From a virus: 34,350 nucleotides of DNA. The notes under the pieces were generated by a model. That model was not told the origin of the DNA. It searched no databases and was given only the letters and a program-made list of their open reading frames with translations. The stretch is taken from the IMG/VR virus record IMGVR_UViG_3300009194_000030, positions 1 to 34,350 of that record; one strand, 5' to 3'. Within the stretch, counting starts at the first letter, position 1. Each line of letters begins with the position of its first letter. The position numbers and the translations under genes are program-made. This document shows, one piece after another, positions 2,039 to 16,832 of the stretch.

Positions 2039-2058
2039 TTGCGCGAAGTATTGCGCAA
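2039..2058. promoter_or_regulatory. Operator-like element, exact 20-bp copy shared with 10112-10131
   Basis: On the minus strand this reads TTGCGCAATACTTCGCGCAA. The same 20 bases occur on the plus strand at 10112-10131. It contains two GCGC cores spaced 12 bases apart within imperfect palindromes. It sits in the 63-base gap upstream of the DUF4406 gene, 36 bases before its ATG, in the direction of that gene. A binding site for a phage repressor or activator is inferred. Confidence 0.65.
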
Positions 2059-2065
2059 TAGCAAA

Positions 2066-2494
2066 TCAGGTTTCGGGCAAACTCAAATCTATCTGATCCG
2101 GGTCGTTTACTATGAGGGCGATGCCGCCGGCCTCCCTGACCTGCTTGAACCACGCGAGTTGCTCGTCGGTTGCTTTGCCCTTGGCCTTGGTTTCCAGGGA
2201 CAGGAACACGGCGATTGGCTTGCCGCGGTTCTTGGCGATCCACTCGTCGTCGACCATTTGCGAGTCCCACCCGATTCCGTCGCCCGAACCCTTGATCAAC
2301 CCGAATTCGATAAAGCTGGGGCGCGTGATGACGCGCTCGCCACCCTCGGCCTTGTAGATCTGCCCGGGTTTGAGCGTGAACCCTGGGCCCTGCCACCCGC
2401 TGCCGACGTTGTTTCGGTATACCCGCGCAAACGGGTTCAGCCGGCTGATGGTAACCAGGCATTTCTTGTACACAGCGTTTTCGCGAATACCCAT
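2066..2494 (-). CDS. VRR-NUC domain nuclease
   Basis: This is a 142-residue protein matching the phage VRR-NUC family, part of the PD-(D/E)XK nuclease superfamily that includes Holliday-junction-type nucleases. The visible signature is LSLETKAKGKATDEQLAWF, which holds the E-x-K catalytic pair and the following conserved Gln, then GGIALIVND. The N-terminal part (NPFARVYRNNVGSGW) is also typical. The likely role is structure-specific DNA cleavage during replication or recombination. The ATG at 2494 has GGGAG about eight bases upstream, overlapping the helicase stop codon. The gene follows the helicase by 12 bases, so the two are almost certainly co-transcribed. Confidence 0.85.
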   Translation of the reverse strand: MGIRENAVYKKCLVTISRLNPFARVYRNNVGSGWQGPGFTLKPGQIYKAEGGERVITRPSFIEFGLIKGSGDGIGWDSQMVDDEWIAKNRGKPIAVFLSLETKAKGKATDEQLAWFKQVREAGGIALIVNDPDQIDLSLPET

Positions 2495-2506
2495 GATTGT
2501 CGCTCC

Positions 2507-4249
2507 CTATGCCAGCTTGAGGCTGGACTGTTTTTCGTTGTCGTTGGCGTTGTCCATGAACAGGGCCTCGCCCACCTTCTCGATGTTGTCTTTCAGCGCC
2601 TTGGGCTTCATGTCCCGCACGTCGGCCATGGTGAAGCCCCAGGCGTCGCGGATGCCGCGGCCGGTGCTGGCGCTCCACTTCTTGAGCAGCTCGCGCAGTT
2701 CGTTCTGCAGCGCTTCCTTCTCGGCCCGGGCCTGCAGGATGTGCTGCGCTCGTCCGGTGCTGACGCCCATGGCCTTGAGCTGCGCCATGTCCTTCGCGGC
2801 GCCGGTCTTGATGCGTGGTGGTGGCAGCGTGTCGTCGGTGCGCTCCTGCAGGGTGCCTTCGCGCACCTCGAGCGTGCGGCTCTGCACCTCGAAGACGTGG
2901 TCGCAGAACGTGCCGTCGCGTCTCGGGCCGCCGCACACCGCCCTGGGTTCCTCGGTGTAATGGCACTTCGGGCACTGCAGCACCCGCTCGGCCTTCTCCT
3001 TGATCAGCGCACCGCGCTTGCCGCGCTTCTTGCCGTCGAGCGTCCACTCGCGGTCAGCTGCCGGCATGCCGTGGTAGTCGACGTTGCCGACGTGGTCGAT
3101 GATCAGGCCGTAGGTCTTGCCGCTGGCCTCGATGGCGTCGTGCCGGCCCTCCTCGGTGCCCAGGTCGAAGCCAGGCGCGTACACGGTACGCAGCACGCGG
3201 CCAACCTGCTGCAGGTAAAGCGACTCGGACTCGGTCGGGCGTAGCAGGATCGCCACCTCGGCGGCCGGTATGTCGGTGCCCTCGCTGACGACGTCGACGG
3301 TTACGATGCCTTGGATGCGACCGTCGCCCAGGCCGGCGATACGGTAGTCGCGGTCCTCGTCTTCCATGTCGCCGTGCACGACCTCGAAGCGATAGCCGGC
3401 GTCACGGAACTTTTGAGCTGTGTCCTCCGCGTCCTTGACGCTGCAGCAGAACACGATGGCGGCCTTGCCATCGGCCAACTCGCGATAGTGCTGCACGGCG
3501 TCGCCGATGATGGCCTTGCGGTCTGGGCTGGATGCCACCGCTTGGAGGTCGATGTCGTCGCCCTTGTGCGCGGCGTTTTCCCGGTCGTAGCCCGGCGGCG
3601 AGAACACGCGGGGTCGTACCAGATAGCCCATCTGGATCAGCTCGCGCATGGATGGGCCGAGCACCATGGCGTCGAAGCATCCGCCGCATCCCTTGCCCAG
3701 GCCTTGTCCGTCTGTGCGCACCGGGGTCGCGGTCACGCCGACGAGTTTCGCTTTCGGGCAGGCCTCGATGATGCGGGCCCAGGTGCCAGCCACCGCGTGG
3801 TGTGCCTCGTCGATGACGATGATGTTCGGGTCGAATGCCTTTAGCCAGTCGAACCGGCGCGCGAGCGTCTGCACGCTGGCCACGGCCACATGCGAGTGTT
3901 TGTCGATCATCGGCCAGCCGAGTTTCTCGACGTGCGCCGCGCGGATCTTCGCGACCTTGTCCGCCGGCGCGATCACTTGATGGTTTACACCTAAACCGCC
4001 GACAGCGAGTGAAGCCTGCCGGATCAGTTCTTTGCGGTGTTCGAGAATCAAAATCCTGTTGCCGCGCAAGGCTGCTCCCTGACTCATGGCGGCATACGTC
4101 ACGGTCTTTCCGCCGCCTGTTGGGAGCACGAACAGCACTGCGCTATGCCCCACACGCATCTCTGCCCTGATGTCGTTGAGACCCTTATCTTGATAATCGC
4201 GCAATGCCAGTTTGATGCCTGTCGCGAGCGGCGACATGGCGGAAGTCAT
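2507..4249 (-). CDS. SF2 DEAD/DEAH-box helicase
   Basis: This 580-residue protein has the full superfamily 2 motif set: Walker A PTGGGKT (43-49), DEAH box VIDEAHH (about 147), motif III VTATP (about 170), SEGTDIP and motif VI QQVGRVLR (about 345). A zinc-ribbon-like segment follows near residues 425-445 (CPKC, then two further Cys and CDH), and the C-terminal 120 residues are charged and helical. The family unwinds or remodels DNA; in phages the nearest neighbours are usually primase and VRR-NUC genes, as here. The ATG overlaps the stop of the upstream regulator by four bases (ATGA), indicating translational coupling. M5 is an alternative start. Confidence 0.92.
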   Translation of the reverse strand: MTSAMSPLATGIKLALRDYQDKGLNDIRAEMRVGHSAVLFVLPTGGGKTVTYAAMSQGAALRGNRILILEHRKELIRQASLAVGGLGVNHQVIAPADKVAKIRAAHVEKLGWPMIDKHSHVAVASVQTLARRFDWLKAFDPNIIVIDEAHHAVAGTWARIIEACPKAKLVGVTATPVRTDGQGLGKGCGGCFDAMVLGPSMRELIQMGYLVRPRVFSPPGYDRENAAHKGDDIDLQAVASSPDRKAIIGDAVQHYRELADGKAAIVFCCSVKDAEDTAQKFRDAGYRFEVVHGDMEDEDRDYRIAGLGDGRIQGIVTVDVVSEGTDIPAAEVAILLRPTESESLYLQQVGRVLRTVYAPGFDLGTEEGRHDAIEASGKTYGLIIDHVGNVDYHGMPAADREWTLDGKKRGKRGALIKEKAERVLQCPKCHYTEEPRAVCGGPRRDGTFCDHVFEVQSRTLEVREGTLQERTDDTLPPPRIKTGAAKDMAQLKAMGVSTGRAQHILQARAEKEALQNELRELLKKWSASTGRGIRDAWGFTMADVRDMKPKALKDNIEKVGEALFMDNANDNEKQSSLKLA

Positions 4250-4593
4250 AGCTCGGCACCAAGCTGCTCTGTGACTACTTTCTCAAGGCGATCAAGGCGC
4301 GCAGATACGTCAAGCTTTTGTGAAGAATCCTTGGATTTTAGCGTTGACAGGATGCGGTCAAGCTCGGCTACAAGTGCCGCCGGCAGACTTTTGCCGGATG
4401 TTTTATAGAGACTGACGATGGCCTCTCGCATCTTGCCCACCGTTGTCGCACTTGGCTCGCTGCCGGACTGCCAGCGATAGAAAGTGCTCGCTGTAACGCC
4501 AGACTTCTTGCACGCCTGAAAGATATTCGAGTCGCACTGCACAAGCAGCTTGCGGACGATCTCTGCGGTGGCCTGGCCTGTGTTTTGTTCCAT
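4246..4593 (-). CDS. Small helix-turn-helix regulator (Cro/CII-like position)
   Basis: From ATG 4593 this encodes 115 residues. The N-terminal 65 contain a probable helix-turn-helix: ACKKSGVTASTFYRWQSGSE, followed by helices. The C-terminal half (LDRLEKVVTEQLGAEL) looks like an amphipathic multimerisation helix. A TTG 42 bases further upstream (4635) is also in frame, but it would lie inside the operator repeat; ATG 4593 has GGGG nine bases upstream and is preferred. It is the first gene of the leftward operon and overlaps the helicase by four bases, a position like Cro/CII ahead of replication genes in lambdoid phages. Regulation of the flanking TTGCGCAA operators is inferred. Family assignment beyond HTH is not possible by eye. 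Confidence 0.75.
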   Translation of the reverse strand: MEQNTGQATAEIVRKLLVQCDSNIFQACKKSGVTASTFYRWQSGSEPSATTVGKMREAIVSLYKTSGKSLPAALVAELDRILSTLKSKDSSQKLDVSARLDRLEKVVTEQLGAEL

Positions 4594-4624
4594 GAGTTGA
4601 ATCCCCGGTTGGTGGTTTTGTGCA

Positions 4625-4656
4625 TTGTTGCGCAAGTATTCTGCTTGCGCAATACC
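4625..4656. promoter_or_regulatory. Operator-like pair of TTGCGCAA sites upstream of the regulator gene
   Basis: Two TTGCG cores lie 17 bases apart (4628 and 4645), each in a near-perfect TTGCGCAA palindrome separated by GTATTCTGC. The element lies between the suggested leftward promoter and the regulator ATG, where bound protein would block transcription. Autoregulation by the regulator is inferred. Confidence 0.6.
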
Positions 4657-4669
4657 TTGCCGCTCGCCG

Positions 4670-4699
4670 TGAATACTTGTGATTTCCAGTGAAAAGCAA
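4670..4699 (-). promoter_or_regulatory. Candidate sigma70 promoter for the leftward replication operon
   Basis: On the minus strand TTGCTT (4699-4694) and TATTCA (4675-4670) are separated by 18 bases, a fair sigma70-type match. Transcription would start near 4663, just before the operator pair at 4625-4656 and about 70 bases before the regulator start codon. This is a by-eye prediction only. Confidence 0.35.
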
Positions 4700-4707
4700 T
4701 GCAGGGT

Positions 4708-4740
4708 GTTGCGTTGCTGTCTGTGTTGCGCAACAATTAA
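4708..4740. promoter_or_regulatory. Operator-like repeat controlling the rightward operon
   Basis: TTGCG cores at 4709 and 4726 are again 17 bases apart, the second within GTTGCGCAAC. The following ACAATTAA resembles ACAGTTAA next to the 10.1-kb element, so cores and flank are shared. The site lies 52 bases before the first rightward start codon, where the early promoter is expected. No clean -10/-35 pair was identified. Confidence 0.55.
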
Positions 4741-4792
4741 CCCATGTTAATGACACGAACCGGTCGAAAGACCTGCAAACGAGGGCAGTCCA

Positions 4793-5062
4793 GTGAAAAA
4801 TAATGATGGTGGTCCGGCTTTTCCGGTGCCAGGTCTGCAGCATGACGAGGCGTTTAACGGCATCAGCGTGCGCGACTACTTGGCAGCGCATGCGCCGATA
4901 TCGCTTATTGATGCGAACGAGGCGATGCACCAGCAGCCGCAGACGTTCGCGAAGCCAGTCGGCGAGGTCTTCCCGCTTCCGCTGCTGATGAAGGAACTGG
5001 TGCGCATGCGCTACGAGTACGCCGACGCGATGCTGTCTGCTCGCGAAGGCGGTGCCGTGTGA
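4793..5062 (+). CDS. Small early phage protein of unknown function
   Basis: This is an 89-residue protein beginning at GTG 4793, with GAGGG about eight bases upstream. The segment GGPAFPVPG followed by GISVRDYLAAHAP is a recurrent motif in small phage early proteins of unknown function. The last third is helical. It is the first gene of the rightward operon, and its stop overlaps the GTG of the exonuclease (GTGA), so it is translationally coupled to the recombination module. No enzymatic motif is visible. Confidence 0.75.
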   Translation: MKNNDGGPAFPVPGLQHDEAFNGISVRDYLAAHAPISLIDANEAMHQQPQTFAKPVGEVFPLPLLMKELVRMRYEYADAMLSAREGGAV

Positions 5063-5901
5063 CGCCCGGCTTCTACACTGCTGATCAGCTGTCGAACGAG
5101 GCCTATCACGCGGGCCCCGGTGTCAGTAACTCGGGCTTGAAGCTGATCGGCGACAAGACGCCGTTCCACTTCTGGGGCCGCTACCTTGCACCTAATCGCA
5201 ATCGCCATGCCAGCACGCCCGGGCAGTTCACCGGTACCGCTTTCCACGCGGCGTCGCTTGAGCCAGAAAAGTTCGAGGCCGAGTACGTGGTCGCGAACTT
5301 CAAGGACAAGCGAGCTGCTGGCTACAAGGCCTGGGCCGAGCAGCAGTCGAAGCACATCCTGATGGCTCATGAGATGTCGAACGTGCTCGGCATGCGCCGC
5401 AGCCTGTACGCGCACCCTGTGGCCGGTGGCCTTCTGCGTGGCGGTGGCCAGTACGAGTTCTCGGCATACGCCGAAGACCCCGAGACCGGCGTGCTGGTGC
5501 GCGCCCGTGCTGACTTCATGTCCGACAGCGGCTGGATCGTCGACCTCAAGAAGTGCCAGGACGCCAGCGAGGCCGGGTGCCGGAAGGCGATCGAGAACTA
5601 CGGCTACTGGCAGCAGGACCCGTTCTATCTCGATGTGTTCACGCTGGCCGGTGGCGAGCCTCCTCGCGGTTTCGTGTTCGTGTTCGTCGAGGAGGAATTC
5701 CCGCACGCAGTAAACGTCGTCTACCTCAGCGAGGACGACCGGCACCGCGGGCGCCGCACTTACCGCAACAACTTGAACCTCTACGCGCACTGCTTAGAGC
5801 GCAACGAATGGCCGGGTTACGGCACGCAGGCGAGCGAACTGGAGCTGTCGATCTGGGCGCGTCGCCGCATTGATGAAAAACTTTCCAACGAGGACTTTTG
5901 A
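5059..5901 (+). CDS. RecE/exonuclease VIII-like PD-(D/E)XK exonuclease
   Basis: This 280-residue protein matches the phage YqaJ/RecE-type exonuclease group. Diagnostic segments are the N-terminal YHAGPGVSNSGLKLI, the TGTAFHAASLEPEKF region (about 55-70), and the catalytic RADFMSDSGWIVDLKKC (about 148-168), which supplies the Asp and the D-x-K motif. ENYGYWQQDPFYLDVF follows and matches the Gln/Tyr motif of the family. The enzyme is expected to resect double-stranded DNA ends and hand single strands to the RecT-like protein encoded directly downstream. The GTG start overlaps the previous stop (GTGA), with AAGGCGG six bases upstream. The next gene starts two bases after this stop. Confidence 0.88.
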   Translation: MTPGFYTADQLSNEAYHAGPGVSNSGLKLIGDKTPFHFWGRYLAPNRNRHASTPGQFTGTAFHAASLEPEKFEAEYVVANFKDKRAAGYKAWAEQQSKHILMAHEMSNVLGMRRSLYAHPVAGGLLRGGGQYEFSAYAEDPETGVLVRARADFMSDSGWIVDLKKCQDASEAGCRKAIENYGYWQQDPFYLDVFTLAGGEPPRGFVFVFVEEEFPHAVNVVYLSEDDRHRGRRTYRNNLNLYAHCLERNEWPGYGTQASELELSIWARRRIDEKLSNEDF

Positions 5902-5903
5902 GC

Positions 5904-6944
5904 ATGACCAATCAACTGACCACCATTGACCAGCGCGACAACAGCCTGCCAGCAGTCGGCGGCGTGTACGGCAGTATCCAGTCGTTCGAGGATGCGCAGC
6001 GCATGGCGAAGGCCCTGGCGGCATCGTCGCTGGTGCCCGACACCTACCAGGGCAACACCGCGAACACCTTGATCGCCCTCGAGGTATCGCAGCGCGTTGG
6101 CGCATCGCCGATGGCGGTGATGCAGAACCTGCACATCATCCATGGTCGCCCGAGCTGGTCGTCGCAGTTCGTGATCGCCGCGCTCAACAGCTGCGGCCGC
6201 TTCTCGCCACTGCGCTTCAAGGTCGAGGACCTGGGCGAGACCGATGCCAAGATCGAGGAGTGGAGTGGGCCAAAGGGCCAGCGGACCAAGTCGAGCCGCG
6301 TCATCAAGGTGCACAACAAGCAGTGCGTCGCCTGGGCCTACGACAAGGCCACCGGCGATGTGCTGGAGGGCCCGCCAGTGACCATCGCCATGGCTGTGTC
6401 CGAAGGCTGGTACACGAAGGATGGCAGCAAGTGGGTAACCATGCCCGACCTGATGCTGCGCTACCGGTCTGCGAAGTTCTTCGGCAACCTGTACGCGCCG
6501 GACGTTCTCATGGGCATGCACAGCGCCGACGAGGTCGAGGACTTCGGCGAGGCAATTGTTCAGGCAAACCCGGATCGGTTCGCCACTCGCCATGCGAATG
6601 ACAACACGCCGAAGGGGAGCCCGCTCGACGACCTGAACTCGTTCGGCGGCGGAACCCACTCGCACCAGTCCGCCAGCGCCACCCAGGTGCTTGACGGTGA
6701 GGTGCTGCCGCCCGAGGGCAAGAAGGACGAACCGGCACCTACGCAGCAGCGTCGCCAGCGCCGTTCGGCTGCGAAGACCACGCCAGATCCCGAACAGCAG
6801 CAGGAACAACAGCAGCAGGCGTCGGACCCAGAGCCCGAGCAACATGTCGAGGATGCGCAGTTCGAGGAGGTCGAGCAGCAGGCCGACCCAGAGCCACAGC
6901 ATCAGACCCAGGCAAACGCCGGCGGCAACCCTGACCTTTTCTAA
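5904..6944 (+). CDS. recT: RecT-like single-strand annealing protein
   Basis: From ATG 5904 this encodes 346 residues; an in-frame TTG at 5898 is less likely because ATG has AGGA at 5891. The core (about 30-220) has the phage RecT-family pattern: GNTANTLIALEVSQRVGAS, AVMQNLHIIHGRPSWSSQF and RYRSAKFFGNLYAPDVLMG. The family anneals complementary single strands and acts with the exonuclease encoded just upstream. The C-terminal 120 residues are low-complexity and acidic, with CAG-rich poly-Gln runs near 6795-6825 (EQQQEQQQQ), probably a disordered tail. Some phages use such tails to bind SSB, but that is only a suggestion here. Confidence 0.88.
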   Translation: MTNQLTTIDQRDNSLPAVGGVYGSIQSFEDAQRMAKALAASSLVPDTYQGNTANTLIALEVSQRVGASPMAVMQNLHIIHGRPSWSSQFVIAALNSCGRFSPLRFKVEDLGETDAKIEEWSGPKGQRTKSSRVIKVHNKQCVAWAYDKATGDVLEGPPVTIAMAVSEGWYTKDGSKWVTMPDLMLRYRSAKFFGNLYAPDVLMGMHSADEVEDFGEAIVQANPDRFATRHANDNTPKGSPLDDLNSFGGGTHSHQSASATQVLDGEVLPPEGKKDEPAPTQQRRQRRSAAKTTPDPEQQQEQQQQASDPEPEQHVEDAQFEEVEQQADPEPQHQTQANAGGNPDLF

Positions 6945-6956
6945 TACCGACCACTG

Positions 6957-6975
6957 GGGCGGCCCGACCGCCCCT
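6957..6975 (+). other. Intergenic GC hairpin between RecT and the SMC-like ATPase
   Basis: GGGGCGG and CCGCCCC form a perfect 7-bp stem with loop CCCGA. There is no T-run after it, so it is unlikely to be a full terminator. The GGAG of the next gene follows closely. It may stabilise mRNA ends or attenuate transcription. Confidence 0.45.
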
Positions 6976-6986
6976 TCGGAGCCATC

Positions 6987-8654
6987 ATGCAAATCGAGAT
7001 CAAGAACTACCGCGGTGTGTCCCAGGCCGACCTCGCGCTGTCGCCTATCGCTCTGGTCGCCGGCATCAACGGTGCGGGCAAGTCTTCCATTGCCCAGGCG
7101 GTGGCCGCTGCTGTCACCCAGAACGCAGCGCCGATCGACGGCATTGCCAAGAACGCCGCCGGGCAGCTGCTGCGCGATGGCCAGAAGCGCGGGCGCTGCG
7201 TGGTCGGTGACGACACCGGCAACGCCACAGCCAACTGGCCGGGCGCCAGTGTCAGCACCGAGGGCACGCCGCCCTGGGCCAGCGACATCGCTGCCGGCAT
7301 CACCAGCCTGGTGGCCATGAAGCCGAAGGATGCGTCGGCGCTGCTGATCCGCGCGATGGAGGCCATGCCGACGTTCGAGCAGCTGCAGGCCGCCCTGCCG
7401 AAGGTATCGCCAGAGATGCTGCAGGCGATCTGGGGCGTCATCCAGGCAGATGGCTGGGACGCTGCGCACAAGCGCTCGCAGGAACGCGGTGCCAAGGCCA
7501 AGGGCGCATGGGAGCACGTCACCGGCGAGCGCTACGGGACCACCAAGGGCGCAGAGTGGCAGCCGGCATTCTTCGCCACCCTGGCAGATGACGTCGAGCT
7601 GGAGGACCTCGAGGCCGAGGCCGCCAGCGCCAAGGCCGAACTCGAGAAGGCCATCAGTGGCCAGGGTGCCGCTCAGGCCGAGATCGACCGGCTCAGCGAG
7701 AAGGCCGCCGCCGGCCTGCGTGCCGCCGAGGCCCTGGCGGGTGCCGAGCAGCAGCTGGCCGATCTGCAGGCCACCCAGGACAAGATCGCCCAGGAATTGA
7801 ACGCGCTCCCTCGCCCCGAGAACGGCGAGTCCTACGTCGAGTGCCCGCACTGCAAGGGCCATCTGGTGATCGTGTCGCGCACCGAGGTCCGACCGCCCGC
7901 CACTGGCATCAGCGACGAGGAGAACGCCGCTCGCGTCAAGGCCATCACCGACAAGACCAACGAGTACGAGACCGCCCGCCAGGCCACATCGCAGCTGTCG
8001 CAAGAGATCGGCGTGTTGCGCCGTCAGCAGCAGGAAGGCAGCGCAGCGGCCCAGCAACTCGACGCCATGCCGCGCGGCAGCGTCACCGCCGACGACGTTG
8101 CCGAGGCCAGGGCCTATGCCGAGCGCGCCGACGAGCAGGTCGTGCGTTGCAAGGCCGCGATCAAGGCCGAGGACGATGCCCTCAAGCTGCACGAACAGAT
8201 CATCACCAACATGGGGATTCTCGCCGAGCTGGCGCCCGATGGCCTGCGCCAGCGCGTGCTGGCCGACAAGATGGCCGAGTTCAACGGCATGCTTGAGCGC
8301 CTTTCCGGTGCTGCTGGGTGGCCTGCGGTGAAGCTGGACGGCGAACTGGCGGCCAGCCTTGGTGATCGTCCGTACATCCTGCTGTCGGAGTCAGAGAAGT
8401 TCCGAGTGCGCACTGTGCTGCAGGTGGCGATCGCCGACCTCGACGGCAGCGACTTAGTGATCGTCGACGCCGCGGACATCCTCGACCGCGGCGGGCGTAA
8501 CGGCCTGTTCAAGCTGCTGAACAGCACCGGCATGCGCTCTCTGGTCTGCATGACGATGAACAAGGCCGAGGACGTGCCGAACCTGGCGGGCGCTGGTCTG
8601 GGCGCGTCGTACTGGCTGAATGAATCCGTCCTGGCGCCCATCGGCGCCCAATAA
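6987..8654 (+). CDS. SMC/Rad50-like AAA ATPase
   Basis: This is a 555-residue ATPase with a split nucleotide-binding domain. Walker A GINGAGKS lies at 26-33. A long Ala/Glu-rich coiled coil fills about 195-280 and 305-400, centred on CPHC (286-289), which looks like a Rad50-type zinc hook. The C-terminal part has the signature LSESEKFRV (about 465) and Walker B DLVIVDAADIL (about 488). The residue after the Walker B Asp is Ala rather than the usual catalytic Glu; phage members of this family commonly keep a D-x-x-D arrangement. Placement after exonuclease and RecT genes indicates a role in phage recombination or end processing, comparable to SbcC/Rad50. No SbcD-type nuclease is adjacent. Confidence 0.85.
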   Translation: MQIEIKNYRGVSQADLALSPIALVAGINGAGKSSIAQAVAAAVTQNAAPIDGIAKNAAGQLLRDGQKRGRCVVGDDTGNATANWPGASVSTEGTPPWASDIAAGITSLVAMKPKDASALLIRAMEAMPTFEQLQAALPKVSPEMLQAIWGVIQADGWDAAHKRSQERGAKAKGAWEHVTGERYGTTKGAEWQPAFFATLADDVELEDLEAEAASAKAELEKAISGQGAAQAEIDRLSEKAAAGLRAAEALAGAEQQLADLQATQDKIAQELNALPRPENGESYVECPHCKGHLVIVSRTEVRPPATGISDEENAARVKAITDKTNEYETARQATSQLSQEIGVLRRQQQEGSAAAQQLDAMPRGSVTADDVAEARAYAERADEQVVRCKAAIKAEDDALKLHEQIITNMGILAELAPDGLRQRVLADKMAEFNGMLERLSGAAGWPAVKLDGELAASLGDRPYILLSESEKFRVRTVLQVAIADLDGSDLVIVDAADILDRGGRNGLFKLLNSTGMRSLVCMTMNKAEDVPNLAGAGLGASYWLNESVLAPIGAQ

Positions 8655-8670
8655 CGAGAGGTAACACCCG

Positions 8671-8976
8671 ATGCAAAACTCCATCATGAAATACTTCGAG
8701 TTCGCCCACCTGCCGCCGCACCTGCAGGAAGTCAGCCGCCCGATCGGCGAGTTGGCTCAGCAGATGAACGAAAGCCTGCCGGATAGCCCCGAGAAAAGCG
8801 CAGGCCTGCGCAAGCTGCTCGAGGCCAAGGATTGCTTGGTTCGCGCCGCTTTGGATAAGCCAGCGCAGATCGAGCAAGTTAAGGAGGAGCGTGATTGCCC
8901 GCACGCAGCACCGTTCCGCTACTGCCCGAATTGCGTGGCTGACCCGTGCCCTGTCGGGCTCGACAAGAAGAACTAA
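8671..8976 (+). CDS. Small helical protein with C-terminal Cys motif; possible Acb2-like protein
   Basis: This 101-residue protein has two parts. Residues 6-60 ([17 protein letters not shown], then [20 protein letters not shown]) predict a helical hairpin that recurs in many phage small proteins. Residues 75-95 hold four Cys (DCPH, YCPNC, DPCP) and may bind zinc. The hairpin is loosely similar in layout to Acb2/Vs.4, the cyclic-dinucleotide sponge that blocks CBASS, but I cannot confirm homology by eye. The gene lies between recombination genes and an HTH gene, a normal place for accessory counter-defence genes. GAGG lies eight bases upstream of the ATG. The leader resembles that of the gene at 11782. 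Confidence 0.75.
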
Positions 8977-8983
8977 CCACCCA

Positions 8984-9003
8984 GGCCGGCAAGGACGCCG
9001 GCC
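8984..9003 (+). other. Intergenic GC hairpin after the 8671 gene
   Basis: GGCCGGC and GCCGGCC form a perfect 7-bp stem with loop AAGGAC. There is no T-run. It lies between the stop at 8976 and the GTG at 9022, and belongs to the series of short hairpins found in several gaps of this operon. Confidence 0.4.
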
Positions 9004-9021
9004 GCAACCCCGCGAGCTATC

Positions 9022-9246
9022 GTGACACCGTCGAACGACAACAATCCGTACCTGACCCCCGAGGAACTGTCGGCCCGCTACCACGGCCGCATCGCCATCC
9101 GCACGCTCGCCAACTGGCGCTGCACCGGCAACGGCCCGAAGTTCACCAAGATCGGAGGCCGGATACTTTACTTGATGAGCGAGGTGCTGGCCTGGGAGAA
9201 AGCCAGGACAGTGGAAAGCACCAGCAACTACGGCAGACGCTGCTGA
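9022..9246 (+). CDS. AlpA/excisionase-like helix-turn-helix protein
   Basis: This 74-residue protein contains YLTPEELSARYHGRIAIRTLANWR followed by PKFTKIGGRILYLMSEVLAWE. This is the standard pattern of small MerR-like helix-turn-helix proteins (AlpA, excisionase, HTH_17), with a first helix, a turn, a recognition helix ending in W-R, and a beta-wing (KIGGRILY). Such proteins act as excisionases or DNA-binding adaptors; with no integrase visible, a regulatory role is equally possible. The start is GTG with only a weak ribosome site. It is followed after nine bases by the HNH endonuclease gene. Confidence 0.75.
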   Translation: MTPSNDNNPYLTPEELSARYHGRIAIRTLANWRCTGNGPKFTKIGGRILYLMSEVLAWEKARTVESTSNYGRRC

Positions 9247-9255
9247 CGGTAACTT

Positions 9256-9846
9256 ATGACCGAACTGAAAACCTGCTCTGCGTGCGGCCTGTCAAAGCCG
9301 CTCGCGGACTACCACAAGGACAAGACCAAGAGGCTCGGTGTCAGCTCGTCCTGCAAGCCATGTGCGAAGGCCCGTTCGTCTGCATGGTACAAGGACAACA
9401 CCGAGCGCGCCCTGGCATCAAGTAAGGAACGGTACCCGGCTGTTCGTGATCGGCGTCTCGAAAGCATGCGGGAATGGCGGGAGCGTAACCCTAAACGAAA
9501 GCAGCAAATCGACAGGCTGTGGCGTGCAAGCAACCCGGACAGGAAGCGCAAGAACTGGCGCGAATGGAAGGCGAACAACCCACAGAAGTCCGCGCAGGAA
9601 TCATCGCTCAGGCGTGCGAGCAAACGCATGGCTACGCCTGGATGGGCTGACCACAATGCCATCAAGGCTCTGTTCGCCGAAGCCGCGCGCCTCACGAAGG
9701 TGACCGGCATCAAGCATCAGGTCGACCACATCGTGCCACTCAAGTCCGAATTGGTCTGCGGGCTGCACTGCGAGTCCAACATGCAGATCCTGACCCAGGT
9801 CGAGAACCTGAAAAAATCCAACCGCTACTGGCCGGACATGCCATGA
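9256..9846 (+). CDS. HNH endonuclease, homing-type
   Basis: This 196-residue protein has an N-terminal zinc-binding module (CSACGLSKPLADYHKD, then CKPCAKA), a central basic region of repeated W-R-x-x-N-P-like units, and a C-terminal HNH core VDHIVPLKSELVCGLHCESN (Asp157-His158) followed by MQILTQVENLKKSNRYW. This layout is typical of free-standing phage HNH endonucleases that cut double-stranded DNA and often spread as homing elements. The base composition in 9256-9620 is visibly more AA/AG-rich than neighbouring genes, consistent with recent arrival. The stop overlaps the next ATG by four bases, so if it inserted, it has been fitted to the operon. It may also serve in packaging or recombination. 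Confidence 0.85.
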   Translation: MTELKTCSACGLSKPLADYHKDKTKRLGVSSSCKPCAKARSSAWYKDNTERALASSKERYPAVRDRRLESMREWRERNPKRKQQIDRLWRASNPDRKRKNWREWKANNPQKSAQESSLRRASKRMATPGWADHNAIKALFAEAARLTKVTGIKHQVDHIVPLKSELVCGLHCESNMQILTQVENLKKSNRYWPDMP

Positions 9847-10094
9847 AGAATTCCGACAAGCGCCCTCGCCACTATGCCGTGGACCTCGTCGACGCCTGGG
9901 TGCGCGGCGAGGACCCGGCGCCGATCCTGGCCAGGATGCCCGCGAACTTCCGCGACCTGGCCAGGGCACACGCTCGCATCTTCTGCGAGCAGATCCAGTT
10001 CCACCGCCGTGCGGGTACTGACCTCGACACCATCAAGGGCGAGCAGCTGGCCGCCTGGGTGCGGGCGTACCGCAATCGAATGGCGTTGAAATAG
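9843..10094 (+). CDS. Unknown small phage protein
   Basis: This 83-residue basic protein has YAVDLVDAWVRGEDPAPIL near the N-terminus and a predominantly helical remainder ending in AWVRAYRNRMALK. No motif is recognised. Its ATG overlaps the HNH stop (ATGA), so it is translated with that gene. The gene ends exactly where the operator-like repeat array at 10095 begins, marking the end of a transcription segment. Confidence 0.7.
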   Translation: MKNSDKRPRHYAVDLVDAWVRGEDPAPILARMPANFRDLARAHARIFCEQIQFHRRAGTDLDTIKGEQLAAWVRAYRNRMALK

Positions 10095-10132
10095 TTGCGT
10101 TGCGCGAATACTTGCGCAATACTTCGCGCAAC
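10095..10132. promoter_or_regulatory. Operator-like array with three GCGC cores at 12-base spacing
   Basis: TTGCG at 10095, 10100 and 10112, plus TCGCG at 10124, give GCGC cores at 10102, 10114 and 10126, spaced exactly 12 bases. The 10112-10131 part is identical to the minus strand of 2039-2058. A candidate promoter TTGCGC (10112) with GTTAAT (10134), spacer 16, overlaps it. It lies 23 bases before the next ATG and probably drives or silences the downstream genes. Confidence 0.65.
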
Positions 10133-10301: not shown

Positions 10302-10341
10302 TCAACGAGACGACCCGGCGCGACCGGGCAAGGAAAGGAAG

Positions 10342-10764
10342 GTGGACGTTAAACGCTTAAAAGTGCTGTGGCCAGTTGGTCCACACGGATATGGCAATGA
10401 AGACGTTGTCTTGGCCAAGGAATTCGACCGCGTCACCGCCGAGCGCGATCAACTGCACGTTCGCCTCACCGATATCGAGCAGAAGGCCGACGACCTGCTA
10501 ACCCAGCTCAACCTGTCGACCGAGCGCGTGCGAGACCTCACAGAGTCGAATGGCGCCCTGCGTGTGCGCATCGCCAATCTGGAGCAGGCTCTGGCCGGCA
10601 TGCTCCATGAGTTCGACGACGGCGTTAACGGTGGTCGTGCCGAGCGCGTGCCGGCGCTGGAATTCGGGCGCACGCTGGTGAAGGCCGCCGATTATGCGCC
10701 TCGCCCCGTCATCTTCGAGGAGCCTGACAACTACCCAGAGCCAGCGGTCGAGGTGCAGCCATGA
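10342..10764 (+). CDS. Coiled-coil phage protein of unknown function
   Basis: This is a 140-residue protein starting at GTG 10342 with AAGGA six bases upstream. Residues 25-95 form a continuous coiled coil (EFDRVTAERDQLHVRL and heptads beyond), followed by an acidic Pro-rich tail. No enzymatic motif is present. A hairpin (CCCGG/CCGGG, 10314-10328) lies in the gap before it. The stop overlaps the next gene's ATG by four bases, so the two products, both with coiled coils, are made together and might interact. Confidence 0.72.
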   Translation: MDVKRLKVLWPVGPHGYGNEDVVLAKEFDRVTAERDQLHVRLTDIEQKADDLLTQLNLSTERVRDLTESNGALRVRIANLEQALAGMLHEFDDGVNGGRAERVPALEFGRTLVKAADYAPRPVIFEEPDNYPEPAVEVQP

Positions 10765-11594
10765 GCCGGTTCACCTTCTGCAACTGCCCGGCAGGATTCA
10801 GCGCAGAACCTGAGCGTCACGCGCCTGATTGCCCTGGCCGCTTTGGCGCCGGCAAAGCACGCACCCCAGTTCCGGTTACGATCAAGCCAGCCGAGCAGCA
10901 CCAGGGCGATCCGGTGGCGCCAGTGATCAATGCCGAACAGGTATTGGGGGCTTATCAATTCGCATCATTTGGGCCTGCCAATCATCTGCGCGGAACAACC
11001 AACTGGTGCGCAGCCTTTGCGCAAGAGCTGAATCACCGAATCGGGGCGGACACGGCCGAGGTCGAACGGATCGGCAAAGAGCTTCGCGAGGTGCGTGAGG
11101 AGCGTGACGACCTGCGCCGCAGGGTGGATGATTTCCAGTCTCGCAGCCACGGAATCAAGAACCTGTCAGTGATCGAGCAGCTGAACGACAAGCTGGCCGA
11201 GCGGGATGCGCTGCTGGCCCGCACATTGCCATACCTCAGCAACACGCCAGACCTTGTGCAGCACGGTGCCGAAGATCTGGCAGAGGAAATTCGCAACGTT
11301 TCGGCTGGCCGGCCGTGTTACGGCCCCAACGAATGGGGAACCGAGTGCGGCAAGTGCAGCAAGTGCAAGCCAGCCAGCGCAGAGCCTAGCGCGCCGGTTG
11401 AGATCGATGAGCGGGCGGCGTTTGAGGCGTGGTATGCAGACTGGTTTAACGACCTGTACAAGCCAACCAAGCCTCTTACCGCTGAATCCATGAAGCAATC
11501 CCGCAAGGGCAATGACTACGGCGCTGGCTCTCTTGGAAAGAATGGCAAGTGGGCAGGCTGGCAAGCCCGCTCCTCCCTGGAGCGCAAGCCATGA
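10761..11594 (+). CDS. Unknown protein with Cys motifs and central coiled coil
   Basis: This 277-residue protein starts with a Cys cluster (FCNCPAGF, then APDCPGRFG). Residues 95-150 are a coiled coil (VERIGKELREVREERDDLRRRV). A second Cys cluster follows near 200-215 (CGKCSKCK). The C-terminus has ERAAFEAWYADWFN followed by GKNGKWAGWQARSSL, a terminal motif seen in many phage proteins of unknown function. Both Cys clusters could bind zinc. The modular look suggests a patchwork protein assembled from common phage segments. It overlaps both neighbours by four bases. Confidence 0.72.
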   Translation: MSRFTFCNCPAGFSAEPERHAPDCPGRFGAGKARTPVPVTIKPAEQHQGDPVAPVINAEQVLGAYQFASFGPANHLRGTTNWCAAFAQELNHRIGADTAEVERIGKELREVREERDDLRRRVDDFQSRSHGIKNLSVIEQLNDKLAERDALLARTLPYLSNTPDLVQHGAEDLAEEIRNVSAGRPCYGPNEWGTECGKCSKCKPASAEPSAPVEIDERAAFEAWYADWFNDLYKPTKPLTAESMKQSRKGNDYGAGSLGKNGKWAGWQARSSLERKP

Positions 11595-11740
11595 CGGCCG
11601 AGAAGCCGGCGTGCCACCCGCGCAAGCGGTTCAATAACCTGTTCGGCGCCCATGCTGCCGCCGATGCGATATGGCGCCGGCAGAAAGTCCAGCGCATCCC
11701 CAAGCGCTGCACCGAGTGCGGCGGGTATCACCTGAATTAA
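11591..11740 (+). CDS. 49-residue basic protein with C-x-x-C motif
   Basis: The ATG at 11591 overlaps the previous stop (ATGA), which favours this start over an in-frame ATG at 11549. The product is strongly basic (CHPRKRFNNLFGAH, IWRRQKVQR) and ends in RCTECGGYHLN, a half zinc-finger typical of tiny phage proteins. It may bind nucleic acid. No function is known. Confidence 0.65.
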   Translation: MTAEKPACHPRKRFNNLFGAHAAADAIWRRQKVQRIPKRCTECGGYHLN

Positions 11741-11781
11741 CTACCGGGCCAAGCCCCAATAACGAAGAAGGAAAACACCCG

Positions 11782-12405
11782 ATGACCAGAATCAGTAAAG
11801 CCCTGATCGAGGGCATGCAGAACAAAGCCGTAGAGAAGGCTGGCATCAACAAGGCAAAGGCCGATCTGGCTGCGCGTGACGAAGCTCTCACCGAGGCCAT
11901 GCGCATCGCGGCCATGGGCGGGGAGGATAACTACGCTCGCCTCATGCTGCTCGACGCGAAGCACAAGAAGTTGTTCGCCGAGGCCGGCAGCTATGCCGAG
12001 TCGGATCGCAAGCACCTGATCGTTCGCAAAACCTCACTTCGAGTGAACCTGGCAGGCATCACCCTGCGCCGTTACTTCCACGATTCCAACGGTGACCATG
12101 AGGCCCGATTCTCTCCTGATGGACAGTTCGTGTTCGAGCAGGGCCACCCAGTTGTCGCGGAGTTCTACGCAATCGAGGACGAGAAGAAGGCCTTGGACGA
12201 CAGGAGGAAGTTGATACGCGCCCAAGTGGCTGCAGCTGTATCGAAGGTCAACACCGTTAAGCGCCTGCTGGAAGTTTGGCCGGAGGCCGCCGAGCTGATC
12301 CCTGAGACCTCCGAGGCCGCGGTGGTGAACTTCCCGGCGATCCGCACCGAGGACCTCAATAAACTGATCGGCCTGCCTTCCGAAGCGCCAGCGCCGACTC
12401 ACTAA
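11782..12405 (+). CDS. Putative Nmad5-family (nucleotide modification associated) protein
   Basis: ATG 11782 is chosen for its AAGGA ribosome site; an ATG at 11671 would add an unlikely Pro-rich extension. The 207-residue product opens with MTRISKALIEGMQNKAVEKA and closes with a helical segment containing NTVKRLLEVWPEAAELIPE. Both ends match my recollection of the Nmad5 family, proposed from genome context to act with phage DNA base modification. The middle holds a short beta-rich region (LRVNLAGITLRRYFHD). No catalytic residues are obvious, and the biochemical activity of the family is unknown. Assignment is from pattern memory. Confidence 0.65.
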   Translation: MTRISKALIEGMQNKAVEKAGINKAKADLAARDEALTEAMRIAAMGGEDNYARLMLLDAKHKKLFAEAGSYAESDRKHLIVRKTSLRVNLAGITLRRYFHDSNGDHEARFSPDGQFVFEQGHPVVAEFYAIEDEKKALDDRRKLIRAQVAAAVSKVNTVKRLLEVWPEAAELIPETSEAAVVNFPAIRTEDLNKLIGLPSEAPAPTH

Positions 12406-12433
12406 TCCCAAAACGACAACCATGGAGACAACC

Positions 12434-13066
12434 ATGTTCAATGACCTAGAAACCCTGGGCGACTTCCCGCGCATCCACGCCGCCGAGACCGTAGGCGTCG
12501 ACCTGCTGGGCGCCCTGCTCGACGAGATCAAGGCCCTGCCGAAGGTCTGGCCGATGATGTCAAAGGACGAGCAGAACGAAGTAATCGACCGCCTGCGCGA
12601 ACGCGTGAAGACCAACGTGCAGCAGGCCGTGGCCCTGATCGCCGCAGAGGACCGCGTGACCGTCGTGGCCACCCTGGAGCAGGTCACGTTTAAGGGCGCC
12701 ATCAAGGCCACGCTCGGCCTGTCGAAATCCAACATCCACCGCCTCGACCTGGCCGACAACGTCGGTGAGCAGGTGCTGGTGTGCATCATGCCGTCCGAGC
12801 AGTTCGCCGCCGGCATGGATGACGTCGAGGGCGAGGAGGACCAGCGCGCGCTGTCCGACGACGAGGACTTCGACCCCGAGGATGATCCGCTGTACGCCCA
12901 TGGCGTGCGCTACCTGCGCGCCGGCGCCTGCAGCCCGACCATCAGCGGCATCCAGCGTCAGCTCAAGATCGGATACAACCGGGCTGCCCGCATGGTCGAG
13001 CGCATGGAGGCCGAGGGCGTGCTCACCGCGGCCAACAGCAACGGCCACCGCGAGGTGATTCAGTAA
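12434..13066 (+). CDS. Phage protein with C-terminal FtsK gamma (winged-helix) domain
   Basis: ATG 12434 is preferred over ATG 12422 because GGAGA lies six bases before it. The 210-residue protein ends in a clear FtsK gamma domain (about 150-205): DPLYAHGVRYLRAGACSPTI then IGYNRAARMVERMEAEGVL and NGHREVI. In FtsK this winged helix reads KOPS sequences and activates XerD. The motor domain is absent. The N-terminal 120 residues are an unrelated helical/beta part (NEVIDRLRERVKTNVQQAV; LADNVGEQVLVCIM), followed by an acidic linker. A role in binding host KOPS or phage sites, or in interfering with chromosome dimer resolution, is inferred. Confidence 0.85.
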   Translation: MFNDLETLGDFPRIHAAETVGVDLLGALLDEIKALPKVWPMMSKDEQNEVIDRLRERVKTNVQQAVALIAAEDRVTVVATLEQVTFKGAIKATLGLSKSNIHRLDLADNVGEQVLVCIMPSEQFAAGMDDVEGEEDQRALSDDEDFDPEDDPLYAHGVRYLRAGACSPTISGIQRQLKIGYNRAARMVERMEAEGVLTAANSNGHREVIQ

Positions 13067-13245
13067 TGAACAGGCCTGTCGCCGGGCGCACCACGGTGCG
13101 TCACCGCCCGACAGGCCGCACGTTCGTGGTCGACACCGTGTCGGCCACGACTGCGTCCTTGTCCGGCATCATGGGAGGCCGCCGCCTGGTGCGCCTCGAG
13201 GACCTGCAAAACGCCGACGTATGGGAGGTTGTGACTCATGGCTGA
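13066..13245 (+). CDS. 59-residue unknown protein coupled to FtsK-gamma gene
   Basis: This short ORF runs ATG 13066 to TGA 13245. It shares one base with the upstream stop (TAATG) and overlaps the next gene by eight bases, leaving no unexplained gap. The product is small and beta-rich (RTTVRHRPTGRTFVVDTV; GGRRLVRLEDLQNADVWEVV), like a small SH3-like or Tudor-like barrel. It has no recognised family. Its packing between coupled genes is the main reason to accept it. Confidence 0.68.
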   Translation: MNRPVAGRTTVRHRPTGRTFVVDTVSATTASLSGIMGGRRLVRLEDLQNADVWEVVTHG

Positions 13246-14158
13246 GACGAAACGCTGGGGCCACGACGAGCTGGCTCACGACCTGGCGGAACACATGCGC
13301 CGCAACACCGAGATCATCGCCTGGGAGGATATGCAGCTCGGGCCCGCGGGCAGCGCCCGGCCAGACGTCTACACCATCCGCAAGAGCTATTCCCGGTTCG
13401 TGCCGGTGGTCTACGAGGTCAAGGTCTCGGTCTCGGACTTCCGCAGCGATATCACCAGCGGCAAGTGGCAGCGGTACCTCAAGTACTGCAGCGCGGTGGT
13501 GTTCGCCGTGCCCGCCGGGCTGATCAAGAAAGAGGACGTCCCGGCCGGGTGCGGGCTGATCGTCCGCCATGACGAAATCTGGCGGACGGTCAAGAACCCG
13601 ACCCTCCAGCGCCTGGAGACCCTGCCCCATGAGGCCTGGGTCAAGCTGGTGATCGACGGCATCGGGCGGGAGGTGGCTCGCCAGCGTACGGCCGAGCCGC
13701 GCTCTCGCGCCGTCAATCACTGGCAGGCGGCCCAAGCGGTGCGGAAACGCCACGGCGACCGCATTGGGCAGCTGCTCTCAAACCTGGGGAGTGCCGAGGC
13801 ATCTATCGAGGTCGCAATCGAGCGGGCGCATGAGCAGGCTCGCGAGATCGAGGCCGGCACCCAGCGCCAGCTCAGGAACGCCATCGAGTTCGCCAGGCAA
13901 GGCCAGGACCGGCTCGACCGCGAGTTCCTGTCGCTGGCCCAGGCCCTGGGCCTGGGTGAGGACGCCACGGCCTCGCAGCTGGCCGATGCGGTCCACGACG
14001 CTCGCTGGCGCCTGCTCAACGACGACGAGGTCAAGCGCCTGCGCTCGAACCTCGAGAGTATCCGCCGGGCATTCAACGACGGCCTGCAGCCGCTTCCTGG
14101 CGAAGTCAGTAACGACAACACACCGCCGCCAGTCGGCCCAGTGGAGTATGCACTATGA
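13238..14158 (+). CDS. MmcB-like PD-(D/E)XK protein with C-terminal coiled coil
   Basis: This is a 306-residue protein. Residues 1-115 match the MmcB-like nuclease fold: RPDVYTI (Asp43), YEVKVSVSDFRSDI (Glu60, Lys62), KWQRYLKYC, then VVFAVPAGLI and AGCGLIV. MmcB acts in DNA repair in alphaproteobacteria, and phage relatives are presumed nucleases; all three catalytic positions are present. Residues 160-270 are helical and likely coiled coil, and the C-terminus is a disordered Pro-rich tail. It overlaps the small gene upstream by eight bases and the next by four, so it belongs to a tightly coupled string. Confidence 0.82.
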   Translation: MAETKRWGHDELAHDLAEHMRRNTEIIAWEDMQLGPAGSARPDVYTIRKSYSRFVPVVYEVKVSVSDFRSDITSGKWQRYLKYCSAVVFAVPAGLIKKEDVPAGCGLIVRHDEIWRTVKNPTLQRLETLPHEAWVKLVIDGIGREVARQRTAEPRSRAVNHWQAAQAVRKRHGDRIGQLLSNLGSAEASIEVAIERAHEQAREIEAGTQRQLRNAIEFARQGQDRLDREFLSLAQALGLGEDATASQLADAVHDARWRLLNDDEVKRLRSNLESIRRAFNDGLQPLPGEVSNDNTPPPVGPVEYAL

Positions 14159-14373
14159 AGAACATCCCGATCCTCGCCCCGAGCCGTCTCCACCTGCAGG
14201 CCTTCCTGGCAGCCTGCCCGTGGATCAACCATGAGCACGTCGTGGCGGTCGAGTCCGAGCGCGGCTACTACCCGGTCAAGCACGTCCATACCTTCGACCT
14301 CGCCGCACTTCCTACAGACAACGAGTTTTTGGCGATCCTCGAACCGAAGGATGACGAGGACGAAGACGAGTAA
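14155..14373 (+). CDS. Small acidic-tailed unknown protein
   Basis: This 72-residue product opens with MKNIPILAPSRLHLQAFLAA and ends in an acidic tail (EPKDDEDEDE). The ATG overlaps the previous stop by four bases. Acidic tails of this sort occur in DNA-mimic or protein-binding small phage proteins, but there is no specific motif. A 68-base gap with a small GGCGC/GCGCC hairpin (14376-14388) follows. Confidence 0.68.
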   Translation: MKNIPILAPSRLHLQAFLAACPWINHEHVVAVESERGYYPVKHVHTFDLAALPTDNEFLAILEPKDDEDEDE

Positions 14374-14441
14374 TAGGCGCCTCGCGCCGATCCCGAAGCC
14401 GGCCCGGTTTGGTCGGCACCCCAACCAAGAAGGAAAACAAT

Positions 14442-15020
14442 GTGACATCACTCATCATCATCGCCCTGGTACTGCTGAACCTGGTCATCAGCTGGTGGAA
14501 CTGCCGCGTCGTCGGCGGCATCTGGAACGAGACCAAGGCAGTGGGCGGGTTCATGCGCGTGCTCGCGTGGTGCGGTGCCGTCCAGGCCGCAGTCGGGTTC
14601 AGCTCGGTGATCATGCTGGTTCTGGTGTTCGCCGGCTACGCCACGGGTCACCTGCCGCTGGAATACGCGAACGCAGCGTCGAGCCTCTGGTACCTGCTGG
14701 TGATCTTCCCTGCCATTGGCACCGGGCTGATCATCACCGTGCACTCGCTGATTCAGGCATGGCGCGAGCGCAGCATCGCCAGCATGGGCGCCGCAGCGTG
14801 GAATACCATGGCCTCGGGCTACAACCTGTACAGCGCAGCCAGCAACGTGCCCGACGCCTTCGATCAGGTAGGCGAACTGTTCAGCGGCGATAAGGATGAA
14901 CGCAAGGTCGCCATGGTGATCCTGCTGGTTGCCGTTGCCATCGCCGGCGGCATCCTGATCGCCGCACTGCTGATCCGGCACTACGCCCGCAACACCCAGC
15001 CGCACTACGCAGCGGCCTGA
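14442..15020 (+). CDS. Four-helix inner-membrane protein, unknown function
   Basis: The start is GTG 14442 with AAGGA nine bases upstream; the neighbouring ATG at 14440 is followed at once by a stop. The 192-residue product has four predicted membrane helices: about 2-18, 42-64, 80-105 and 165-186. Between helices three and four is a soluble region with WNTMASGYNLYSA and a charged SGDKDERK loop. It resembles no holin I recognise, and a separate holin sits beside the endolysin. A role in the host envelope, such as exclusion or signalling, is possible but unproven. Confidence 0.78.
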   Translation: MTSLIIIALVLLNLVISWWNCRVVGGIWNETKAVGGFMRVLAWCGAVQAAVGFSSVIMLVLVFAGYATGHLPLEYANAASSLWYLLVIFPAIGTGLIITVHSLIQAWRERSIASMGAAAWNTMASGYNLYSAASNVPDAFDQVGELFSGDKDERKVAMVILLVAVAIAGGILIAALLIRHYARNTQPHYAAA

Positions 15021-15029
15021 CGCTTCACC

Positions 15030-15045
15030 GGGCGCTTCGGCGCCC
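15030..15045 (+). other. UUCG-tetraloop hairpin between 15020 and 15072
   Basis: GGGCGC and GCGCCC flank the loop TTCG, giving the very stable C(UUCG)G class of hairpin in RNA. No T-run follows. It lies 26 bases before the next start codon and is more likely an mRNA-stability or processing element than a terminator. Confidence 0.5.
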
Positions 15046-15071
15046 AACCACCCACACCAGAGGAAAGGATC

Positions 15072-15383
15072 ATGTCTCGACACACAGAACCGATGACCGA
15101 CGCCTACATCGCCGCCGAGCGCCTGCGCAACGCCGCACGCGTCCAGTGCTCGATCGAGCAACTCGGCACCCGCTGGGTGCTCCACCCCGACAACGCCGTC
15201 ACCCGTGAAAGCCACATCGAGGCCCGCCGAGAGCGCGTCGAGGTCATCGATACCCGTCGTCTGCGCGAGGCCGGGTTCATGCCTTTGCGCGAAGCATTCC
15301 AGCGCGCCGAAGAAGGCTCTTTTGCTGCCATCCTGGCCGCCCGTAAACCGGTTCTGCTCCAGCACGACGGGGGTGCGCAATGA
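15072..15383 (+). CDS. Unknown phage protein (103 residues)
   Basis: This is a soluble, charged protein with helical N-terminus (DAYIAAERLRNAARVQCSI) and a central beta segment (RWVLHPDNAV). The ATG has AGAGGAAAGG six to twelve bases upstream, a strong site. No family is recognised. Its stop overlaps the next ATG (ATGA), beginning a run of five translationally linked small genes. Confidence 0.72.
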   Translation: MSRHTEPMTDAYIAAERLRNAARVQCSIEQLGTRWVLHPDNAVTRESHIEARRERVEVIDTRRLREAGFMPLREAFQRAEEGSFAAILAARKPVLLQHDGGAQ

Positions 15384-15883
15384 GTTACGGTGACTTCCTC
15401 CTCATGGCGATGGATAGCATCGCCAACACCGGAGAGTTGACGACCGTCGACGGCATCCGGCAGTACGCTCGGACCAGCCTGGACAACGCGCATGACCTAA
15501 AGCTCAAGGAAATGCTGCTTGCGCCGAAGCAGCCGGAATGGGACGGCGAGGGTCTGCCGCCTGCCGGAACTGTGTGTGAACTGCGCATGACAGCCGCCGG
15601 CAGCGATTGGCACATAGCTGAGATCAAGTTCGCTTCCCGAAATGTGATTGTCTGGGACTGGGAAGGTGAAAGCCAGATCAACGGACTGTGCACCGCCTAC
15701 ATCCATGCCGTGCAGTTCCGCGCCGCCCGCACGCCAGAGCAGATTGCGGCGGAAAATTACGAAGCCGATGCTGCTGACTTGGCCGAGGTTATGACCGGGC
15801 ACCGCGACCGTAGCAAAGATTGCTACATGACCCTGGCGAAAGTGATCCTTGACGCCGGCTATCGCAAGCAGGAGGCGCCATGA
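15380..15883 (+). CDS. Unknown phage protein with WDGEGLPPAGTVCE motif
   Basis: This is a 167-residue protein. The segment WDGEGLPPAGTVCELRM (about 53-70), with a beta-rich region after it (HIAEIKFASRNVIVWDWEG), recurs in phage proteins of unknown function and looks like a small beta-barrel module. The C-terminal third is helical and charged (EQIAAENYEADAADLAEVM). No catalytic residues are recognised. It overlaps both neighbours by four bases. Confidence 0.75.
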   Translation: MSYGDFLLMAMDSIANTGELTTVDGIRQYARTSLDNAHDLKLKEMLLAPKQPEWDGEGLPPAGTVCELRMTAAGSDWHIAEIKFASRNVIVWDWEGESQINGLCTAYIHAVQFRAARTPEQIAAENYEADAADLAEVMTGHRDRSKDCYMTLAKVILDAGYRKQEAP

Positions 15884-16200
15884 ACGACCTCATGCTAGCG
15901 GCAAAGGCCGCAAAGGTCGCCGGACTTGACGTCGAGTTCGACGCCGAGTCGGGCAAGGCCTTTGACCACCTGTCGAATGAATGGGACCCGCGCCTGCACG
16001 ATGGCGAAGCCCTGCGTCTGGCCGGCGCCCTGCTGATCGGCCTGGACCTGGCTGGCCAGAAACCGGCGGCCGTGTTCTTCCACCCGGGCAAGGCTCGGTT
16101 TGTGCGGTTCAGTGAGGGCCCCGACGTTCAGGGCCTGATGCCGGCGATCCGCATGGCCATCTTCCGATCTGCCGTTGAGATCGCGAGGTTCCTGCCATGA
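15880..16200 (+). CDS. Unknown phage protein (106 residues)
   Basis: This is a predicted soluble alpha/beta protein, with LAAKAAKVAGLDVEF at the N-terminus and DGEALRLAGALLIGL in the middle. A common small phage early protein pattern, but no function is known. Start and stop both overlap neighbouring genes by four bases (ATGA). Confidence 0.7.
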   Translation: MNDLMLAAKAAKVAGLDVEFDAESGKAFDHLSNEWDPRLHDGEALRLAGALLIGLDLAGQKPAAVFFHPGKARFVRFSEGPDVQGLMPAIRMAIFRSAVEIARFLP

Positions 16201-16568: not shown

Positions 16569-16828
16569 GCCGCGTGCACTGGCGGAACGGCATGCGCGTG
16601 CCTGTCGTCGATAATTCGCGCAGCGTACCGAAGAAGCCCGTCATCTGGCACGGCGAGATCTGGCTCGTCCTGCCTGGTGGCGTGAAGGACACCCGCATCT
16701 GGCGGGCAAACAATCGCATGACGCGCCAGCAGGCGCAGACCGTGCTCCACCAGCTGCTTGCCGAGTTGATCGACGAGCACGGCGAGAACGCGGCAGTCGA
16801 CTCTGGCTTCTGGATGCAATCGAGGTGA
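16565..16828 (+). CDS. Unknown small phage protein, TTG start
   Basis: The frame is open from 16538, but TTG 16565 overlaps the previous stop as TTGA and gives a well-formed N-terminus (SRVHWRNGMRVPVVDN). The 87-residue product is beta-rich at first (KPVIWHGEIWLVLPGGV) and helical later (RQQAQTVLHQLLAELI). No family is known. The TTG start suggests low or coupled translation. Confidence 0.62.
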   Translation: MSRVHWRNGMRVPVVDNSRSVPKKPVIWHGEIWLVLPGGVKDTRIWRANNRMTRQQAQTVLHQLLAELIDEHGENAAVDSGFWMQSR

Positions 16829-16832
16829 TGTG

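Follow-up and report, generated by a model that had tools for sequence, protein, structure and literature searches.

The window, i.e. the whole stretch of 34,350 nucleotides analyzed here (metagenomic IMG/VR record IMGVR_UViG_3300009194_000030), is organized around a divergent control region. On the minus strand, a 115-aa helix-turn-helix (HTH) protein (4246-4593; recognition helix ...STFYRW...), the candidate repressor of this study, is encoded in one operon with an SF2 helicase (2507-4249) and a putative endonuclease (2066-2494; phrog_93). A Pfam DUF4406 gene (1682-2002) follows on the same strand and, behind it, an open frame that runs off the window and contains a zinc-finger-like CAGCG motif (3-1673), putatively named primase-like by our own reading of the frame. 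On the plus strand, the recombination operon (4793-8654) encodes an 89-aa protein, an exonuclease VIII-like protein, a RecT-like protein and an SbcC-like ATPase. The rightward genes at 10342-17576, which probably form a single operon, end in a LuxR/GerE-type HTH gene (17202-17576), a candidate late-gene activator. They include an FtsK gamma domain protein (12422-13066), which is unexpected for a phage early region. Between the two plus-strand blocks lie an HTH_17 protein (9022-9246) and an HNH-like frame (9256-9846; our own reading, without a Pfam match).

The 115-aa protein had a Pfam HTH_28 match below the cut-off, no PHROG at E 0.001 (marginal ones at 0.01), no NCBIfam match and no significant PDB relative by sequence, and tblastn against 50,697 phage records returned no match in a described phage. 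An AlphaFold model built from eight sequences (mean pLDDT 74; 84-86 over residues 11-60) was nearest to XRE/Cro chains, with a probability near 1 and no E-value below 0.001. Within the families searchable, the regulator family thus appears to be undescribed, while the overall system type, a dispersed-operator phage repressor network, is already known.

IMG/VR scans with the regulator and the helicase yielded two colinear relatives, G001 (48,967 bases; regulator 72% identical to that of the window) and G002 (50,889 bases; 59%). The window aligns to 11.6-46.9 kb of G001 and 12.5-49.3 kb of G002 with 76-77% DNA identity over the aligned parts. Since it matches only part of each, the window is probably a fragment. 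The HTH_17 protein is conserved in both relatives, and the HNH-like frame is missing at that place in both.

Paired cores in intergenic gaps

The exact 20-mer TTGCGCAATACTTCGCGCAA was found at 2039-2058 (minus) and 10112-10131 (plus), confirming the oppositely oriented copies about 8 kb apart on which the sequence-only reading of this DNA had been built. A copy with three mismatches lies at 10100-10119 (minus), and 0.01 matches with up to three mismatches are expected by chance. The opposite strands of the exact copies reflect the opposite directions of their operons; relative to transcription, their orientation is identical. The two variants said to flank the divergent control region were recovered as pairs of TTGCGCAA-type cores at 4628/4645 and 4709/4726, both 17 bases apart, with the core at 4709 reading TTGCGTTG. 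Cores 12 bases apart occur at 2039/2051 and, with spacings of 12 and 12, at 10100/10112/10124, so that the proposed spacings of 12 or 17 held, the latter being reinterpreted below as promoter geometry. An additional TTGCGT, absent from the earlier reading, lies at 10095, 17 bases before 10112. All four operator places are intergenic gaps, and each is upstream of a gene in its own direction, as had been claimed. The site at 10095-10131 begins at the first base past the stop codon of 9843-10094.

Taken singly, TTGCGCAA cores (at most one mismatch) occurred at chance level in the window (21 found, 19.4 expected), and the signal therefore resides in the paired cores. TTGCG-N10-CGCAA is present in the window only at 2039, 10100 and 10112, and TTGCG-N15-CGCAA only at 4628, 4709 and 10095; summed over the window, G001 and G002, the N10 and N15 spacers were each found 7 times compared to approximately 0.4 times in shuffles. 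The window elements are inverted repeats and not asymmetric. The exact pair is not scattered through coding DNA in the window or in the two longer relatives. A 14-bp unit, GCGC-AAYAAT-GCGC, was considered as the binding unit; it fits several autoregulatory sites and fails at others. No use of TTGCGCAA as a phage operator was found in the literature searched, and a collection scan with TTGCGCNANNNNTNGCGCAA gave mostly noise among the matches listed.

Promoter geometry of the sites

A sigma-70-type promoter pointing at the next gene can be discerned at each site, a reading first made by eye. The typical layout is a TTGNNN -35 element, 17 or 18 bases, and an AAYANT hexamer directly after TTGCGC. 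The predicted promoter of the regulator-helicase-nuclease operon, PL (4624-4652, minus), reads TTGCGC-17-AACAAT with its operator at 4628-4652, and that of the recombination operon, PR (4709-4737, plus), reads TTGCGT-17-AACAAT with its operator at 4709-4733. The predicted rightward operon promoter, PT (10095-10131, plus; TTGCGT-17-AATACT), carries three overlapping cores, and the predicted DUF4406-primase promoter, PD (2035-2064, minus; TTGCTA-18-AATAAT), holds its operator (2039-2058) inside the spacer. Both the -10 and the -35 hexamers are weak. Across 36 sites from six phages, some of them homologous and hence not independent, TTG preceded the hexamer by 17 bases in 13 and by 18 bases in five, with 0.5 expected per offset. 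A strict consensus promoter scan of the first 18 kb returned a single hit, PD, against 2.5 expected by chance, and lends PD weak support.

The two core spacings are explained by the fusion of the operator to the promoter geometry: at a spacing of 17, one core falls on the predicted -35 element and the other abuts the -10 element, while at a spacing of 12 both cores fall within the spacer or over the predicted -10 element. The operators of PL and PR overlap divergent early promoters, and every site in the window is promoter-linked, unlike stoperators, many of which lie outside promoters, in one orientation. The short peptide at 10155, which had been named as a regulated target, has no counterpart at that position in G001 or G002, in which the site is followed immediately by the next reading frame. 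Given this lack of conservation, that part of the proposal is abandoned, and the preferred reading of PT is as a promoter for the operon behind it.

Two further repeats were observed near these promoters. Between PL and PR, a GTGA-N6-GTGA-N6-GTGA array (4669-4692, plus) places three GTGA words at exact 10-base steps. The window, G001 (17977) and G002 (20206) each have a single copy, located centrally in the control region, and the array is possibly the site of a second protein or regulator. An inverted repeat, CCCGGCGCGACCGGGC, lies at 10305-10345, just ahead of the start at 10342; G001 has the repeat behind PT as well, and the G002 version there differs by one change.

Conservation and co-occurrence with the regulator

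The paired motif was kept at the same gaps in G001 and G002, with one G001 site altered. Both relatives have a 17-type pair before the regulator, a 17-type pair (up to three mismatches) before the divergent recombination genes, and a near-identical PT, whose triple core site lies directly 3' of the stop codon of the homolog of the 83-aa gene; the 12-type site before DUF4406 is kept in G002 and present in an altered form in G001. Measured from start to start, the PL and PR elements are exactly 81 bp apart in the window, G001 and G002 alike. Within the control region, 21/25 bases of the PL operator are invariant (outer flanks: 6/24 and 1/23), as are 36/56 of the bases between the two operators; the PR operator is less conserved (13/25, mainly its two cores). 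A search with the triple-site pattern produced one true relative, the other two contigs containing coding repeats.

G001 and G002 also carry a fifth operator site, TTGTGT-17-TATAGT, directly behind a tyrosine integrase gene. At the corresponding region (window 14158-15072; L137:333-1538; L138:154-1425), an unrelated frame is present in the window and the fifth operator is missing, and no integrase was found anywhere in the 34 kb of the window. An operator-like site just past the 3' end of the integrase was observed in all four integrase-bearing phages (G001 28043, G002 30430, G004 2185-2200 and G005 22748-22759). For CI proteins, the search covered those with an S24 domain; neither such a repressor nor an opposing CI (S24) and Cro pair was found in the window (a fragment), G001, G002 or G005. 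Among phages with the full signature, only G004 encodes an S24 repressor, and its gene is divergent from the regulator gene, which places the regulator in the Cro position there.

A helicase profile detected six more contigs. In five of these (L149, L151, L152, L153 and L154) the helicase gene is immediately preceded by one for a small HTH protein that shares the S-T-x-x-R-W recognition helix, and in L150 such a gene lies approximately 700 bases upstream with other frames between. These distant regulators are 21-31% identical to the window protein. Exact TTGCGCAAYAAT sites were found in G004 (L149; 4), G005 (L150; 2) and G008 (L153; 5), in each case with one before the regulator gene, while G006, G007 and G009 encode a family regulator preceded by TTGCGC-type elements without the exact 12-mer. 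Gene calls for the relatives were crude; by these calls, a few of the G005 sites with one mismatch fall within coding frames, and the G008 sites at 11554 and 17585 overlap predicted genes. In total, the six regulator-bearing phages contain 15 exact TTGCGCAAYAAT sites in 259 kb versus none in 1.03 Mb of other viral DNA, a comparison that is descriptive because the 12-mer was partly defined on the same six phages and in which the background consists of stretches fetched for the related 20-mer, not of a random sample. The joint presence of regulator and operator in six phages supports the suggestion that one regulator may control several promoters at once.

Pseudomonas phage ZRG1 resembles the window in having an HTH gene that immediately precedes a related SF2 helicase and is divergent from recombination genes, but its HTH protein is a different one, judged unrelated by eye, and ZRG1 was set aside as a relative. 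Neither ZRG1 nor PPpW-3, which has a related exonuclease and likewise another regulator, contains TTGCGCAAYAAT, even at one mismatch. A hint of the host comes from a stretch of 60 bases that matches Pseudomonas phage PPpW-3 at 95%. The search for TTGCAN{12,13}TTGCGCAAYAAT returned 24 stretches; outside the known family contigs, those examined showed at best weak HTH matches and were rejected. No regulator homolog was found in GTDB genome contigs, in which the helicase profile gave a 30% match only, and a profile scan for new family members recovered known contigs only.

A candidate Cro-like governor of early transcription

An inverted repeat that spans the -35 to -10 region of early promoters, including that of the regulator itself, has the layout classically associated with steric repression. 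It is likely that a single phage-encoded repressor, the 115-aa HTH protein (4246-4593), uses the TTGCGCAA elements as its operators and acts mainly as a Cro-like governor of early genes. In this model, the operators are fused to sigma-70-type promoters with a TTGNNN -35 element, a spacer of 16-18 that usually ends in TTGCGC, and an AAYANT-like -10 element; bound repressor would cover the region from -35 to -10 and exclude RNA polymerase. The 4246 product, which we infer from sequence to bind these sites, would silence the operon to which its gene belongs (regulator, helicase and nuclease) together with the recombination genes, the DUF4406-primase genes and the operon at 10.3-17.6 kb that ends in the LuxR-type regulator. 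It would most likely be self-limiting, and may double as a prophage repressor in relatives with an integrase and without a recognizable CI.

Chance repeats in a GC-rich phage would account for the frequency of single cores, but the paired spacing, the fixed position relative to promoters and the conservation in relatives make this origin exceedingly improbable. That the sites are instead read by a host protein or another phage protein, e.g. the HTH_17 protein (9022-9246), which is also conserved in G001 and G002, is improbable: the sites track the small regulator in six phages, flanking its gene each time, and the two named phages without it (ZRG1 and PPpW-3) have no sites. The weak -10 and -35 hexamers would suit an activator, and MerR-type activators work at promoters with long spacers of 19-20. 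Here, the sites overlap the -35 to -10 region and are not upstream of -35, and spacers are 16-18 overall (17 or 18 in the window), so that activation by the same regulator has little to recommend it.

An alternative that retains both the regulator and its sites assigns to them prophage maintenance and immunity (CI-like) as the main task instead of Cro-like tuning. All early promoters carry sites, and the regulator may be the sole repressor in G001, G002 and G005, which have integrases and no S24 repressor; an immunity role is thus conceivable there. Against this, the regulator is predicted to be co-transcribed with a helicase, which is a lytic function; in G004 a separate S24 repressor is present; and distant phages share the operator, whereas immunity specificities diverge between subclusters (PMC6550527). 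A primarily CI-like function is consequently rather unlikely, and the Cro-like role is preferred.

Lambda has paired early operators. The window shares with lambda/434-type CI-Cro systems a small HTH regulator beside divergent early promoters, operators that are inverted repeats lying over -35 and -10, and autoregulation, here predicted. It differs in having one regulator instead of a CI/Cro pair (no S24 protein was found in the window, G001 or G002), in the position of the regulator gene directly before and co-directional with a helicase, and in the presence of sites at remote promoters. P1 C1 is likewise a single repressor with many operators at promoters across the genome, but its operators are 22 asymmetric 17-bp sequences (PMC8546580) compared to four or five symmetric sites here. 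The mycobacteriophage L5 repressor also has sites genome-wide; L5-type stoperators are asymmetric 13-mers located mostly outside promoters (PMC9283540, PMC6550527), in contrast to the symmetric, promoter-located sites described here.

These results provide a regulator, an operator code and a predicted regulon for a group of phages that are uncultured and probably temperate. In contrast to typical immunity systems, this group retains the operator as its regulators diverge. They raise the question of whether a phage-wide repressor with a shared operator is an early-gene timer or an immunity repressor. Tentatively, a new family whose regulators share only approximately 25% identity may have kept one operator-promoter code; it would then be an early-gene timer that is conserved and distinct from immunity, which diverges quickly. 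If so, these regulators could act on the early promoters of other phages.
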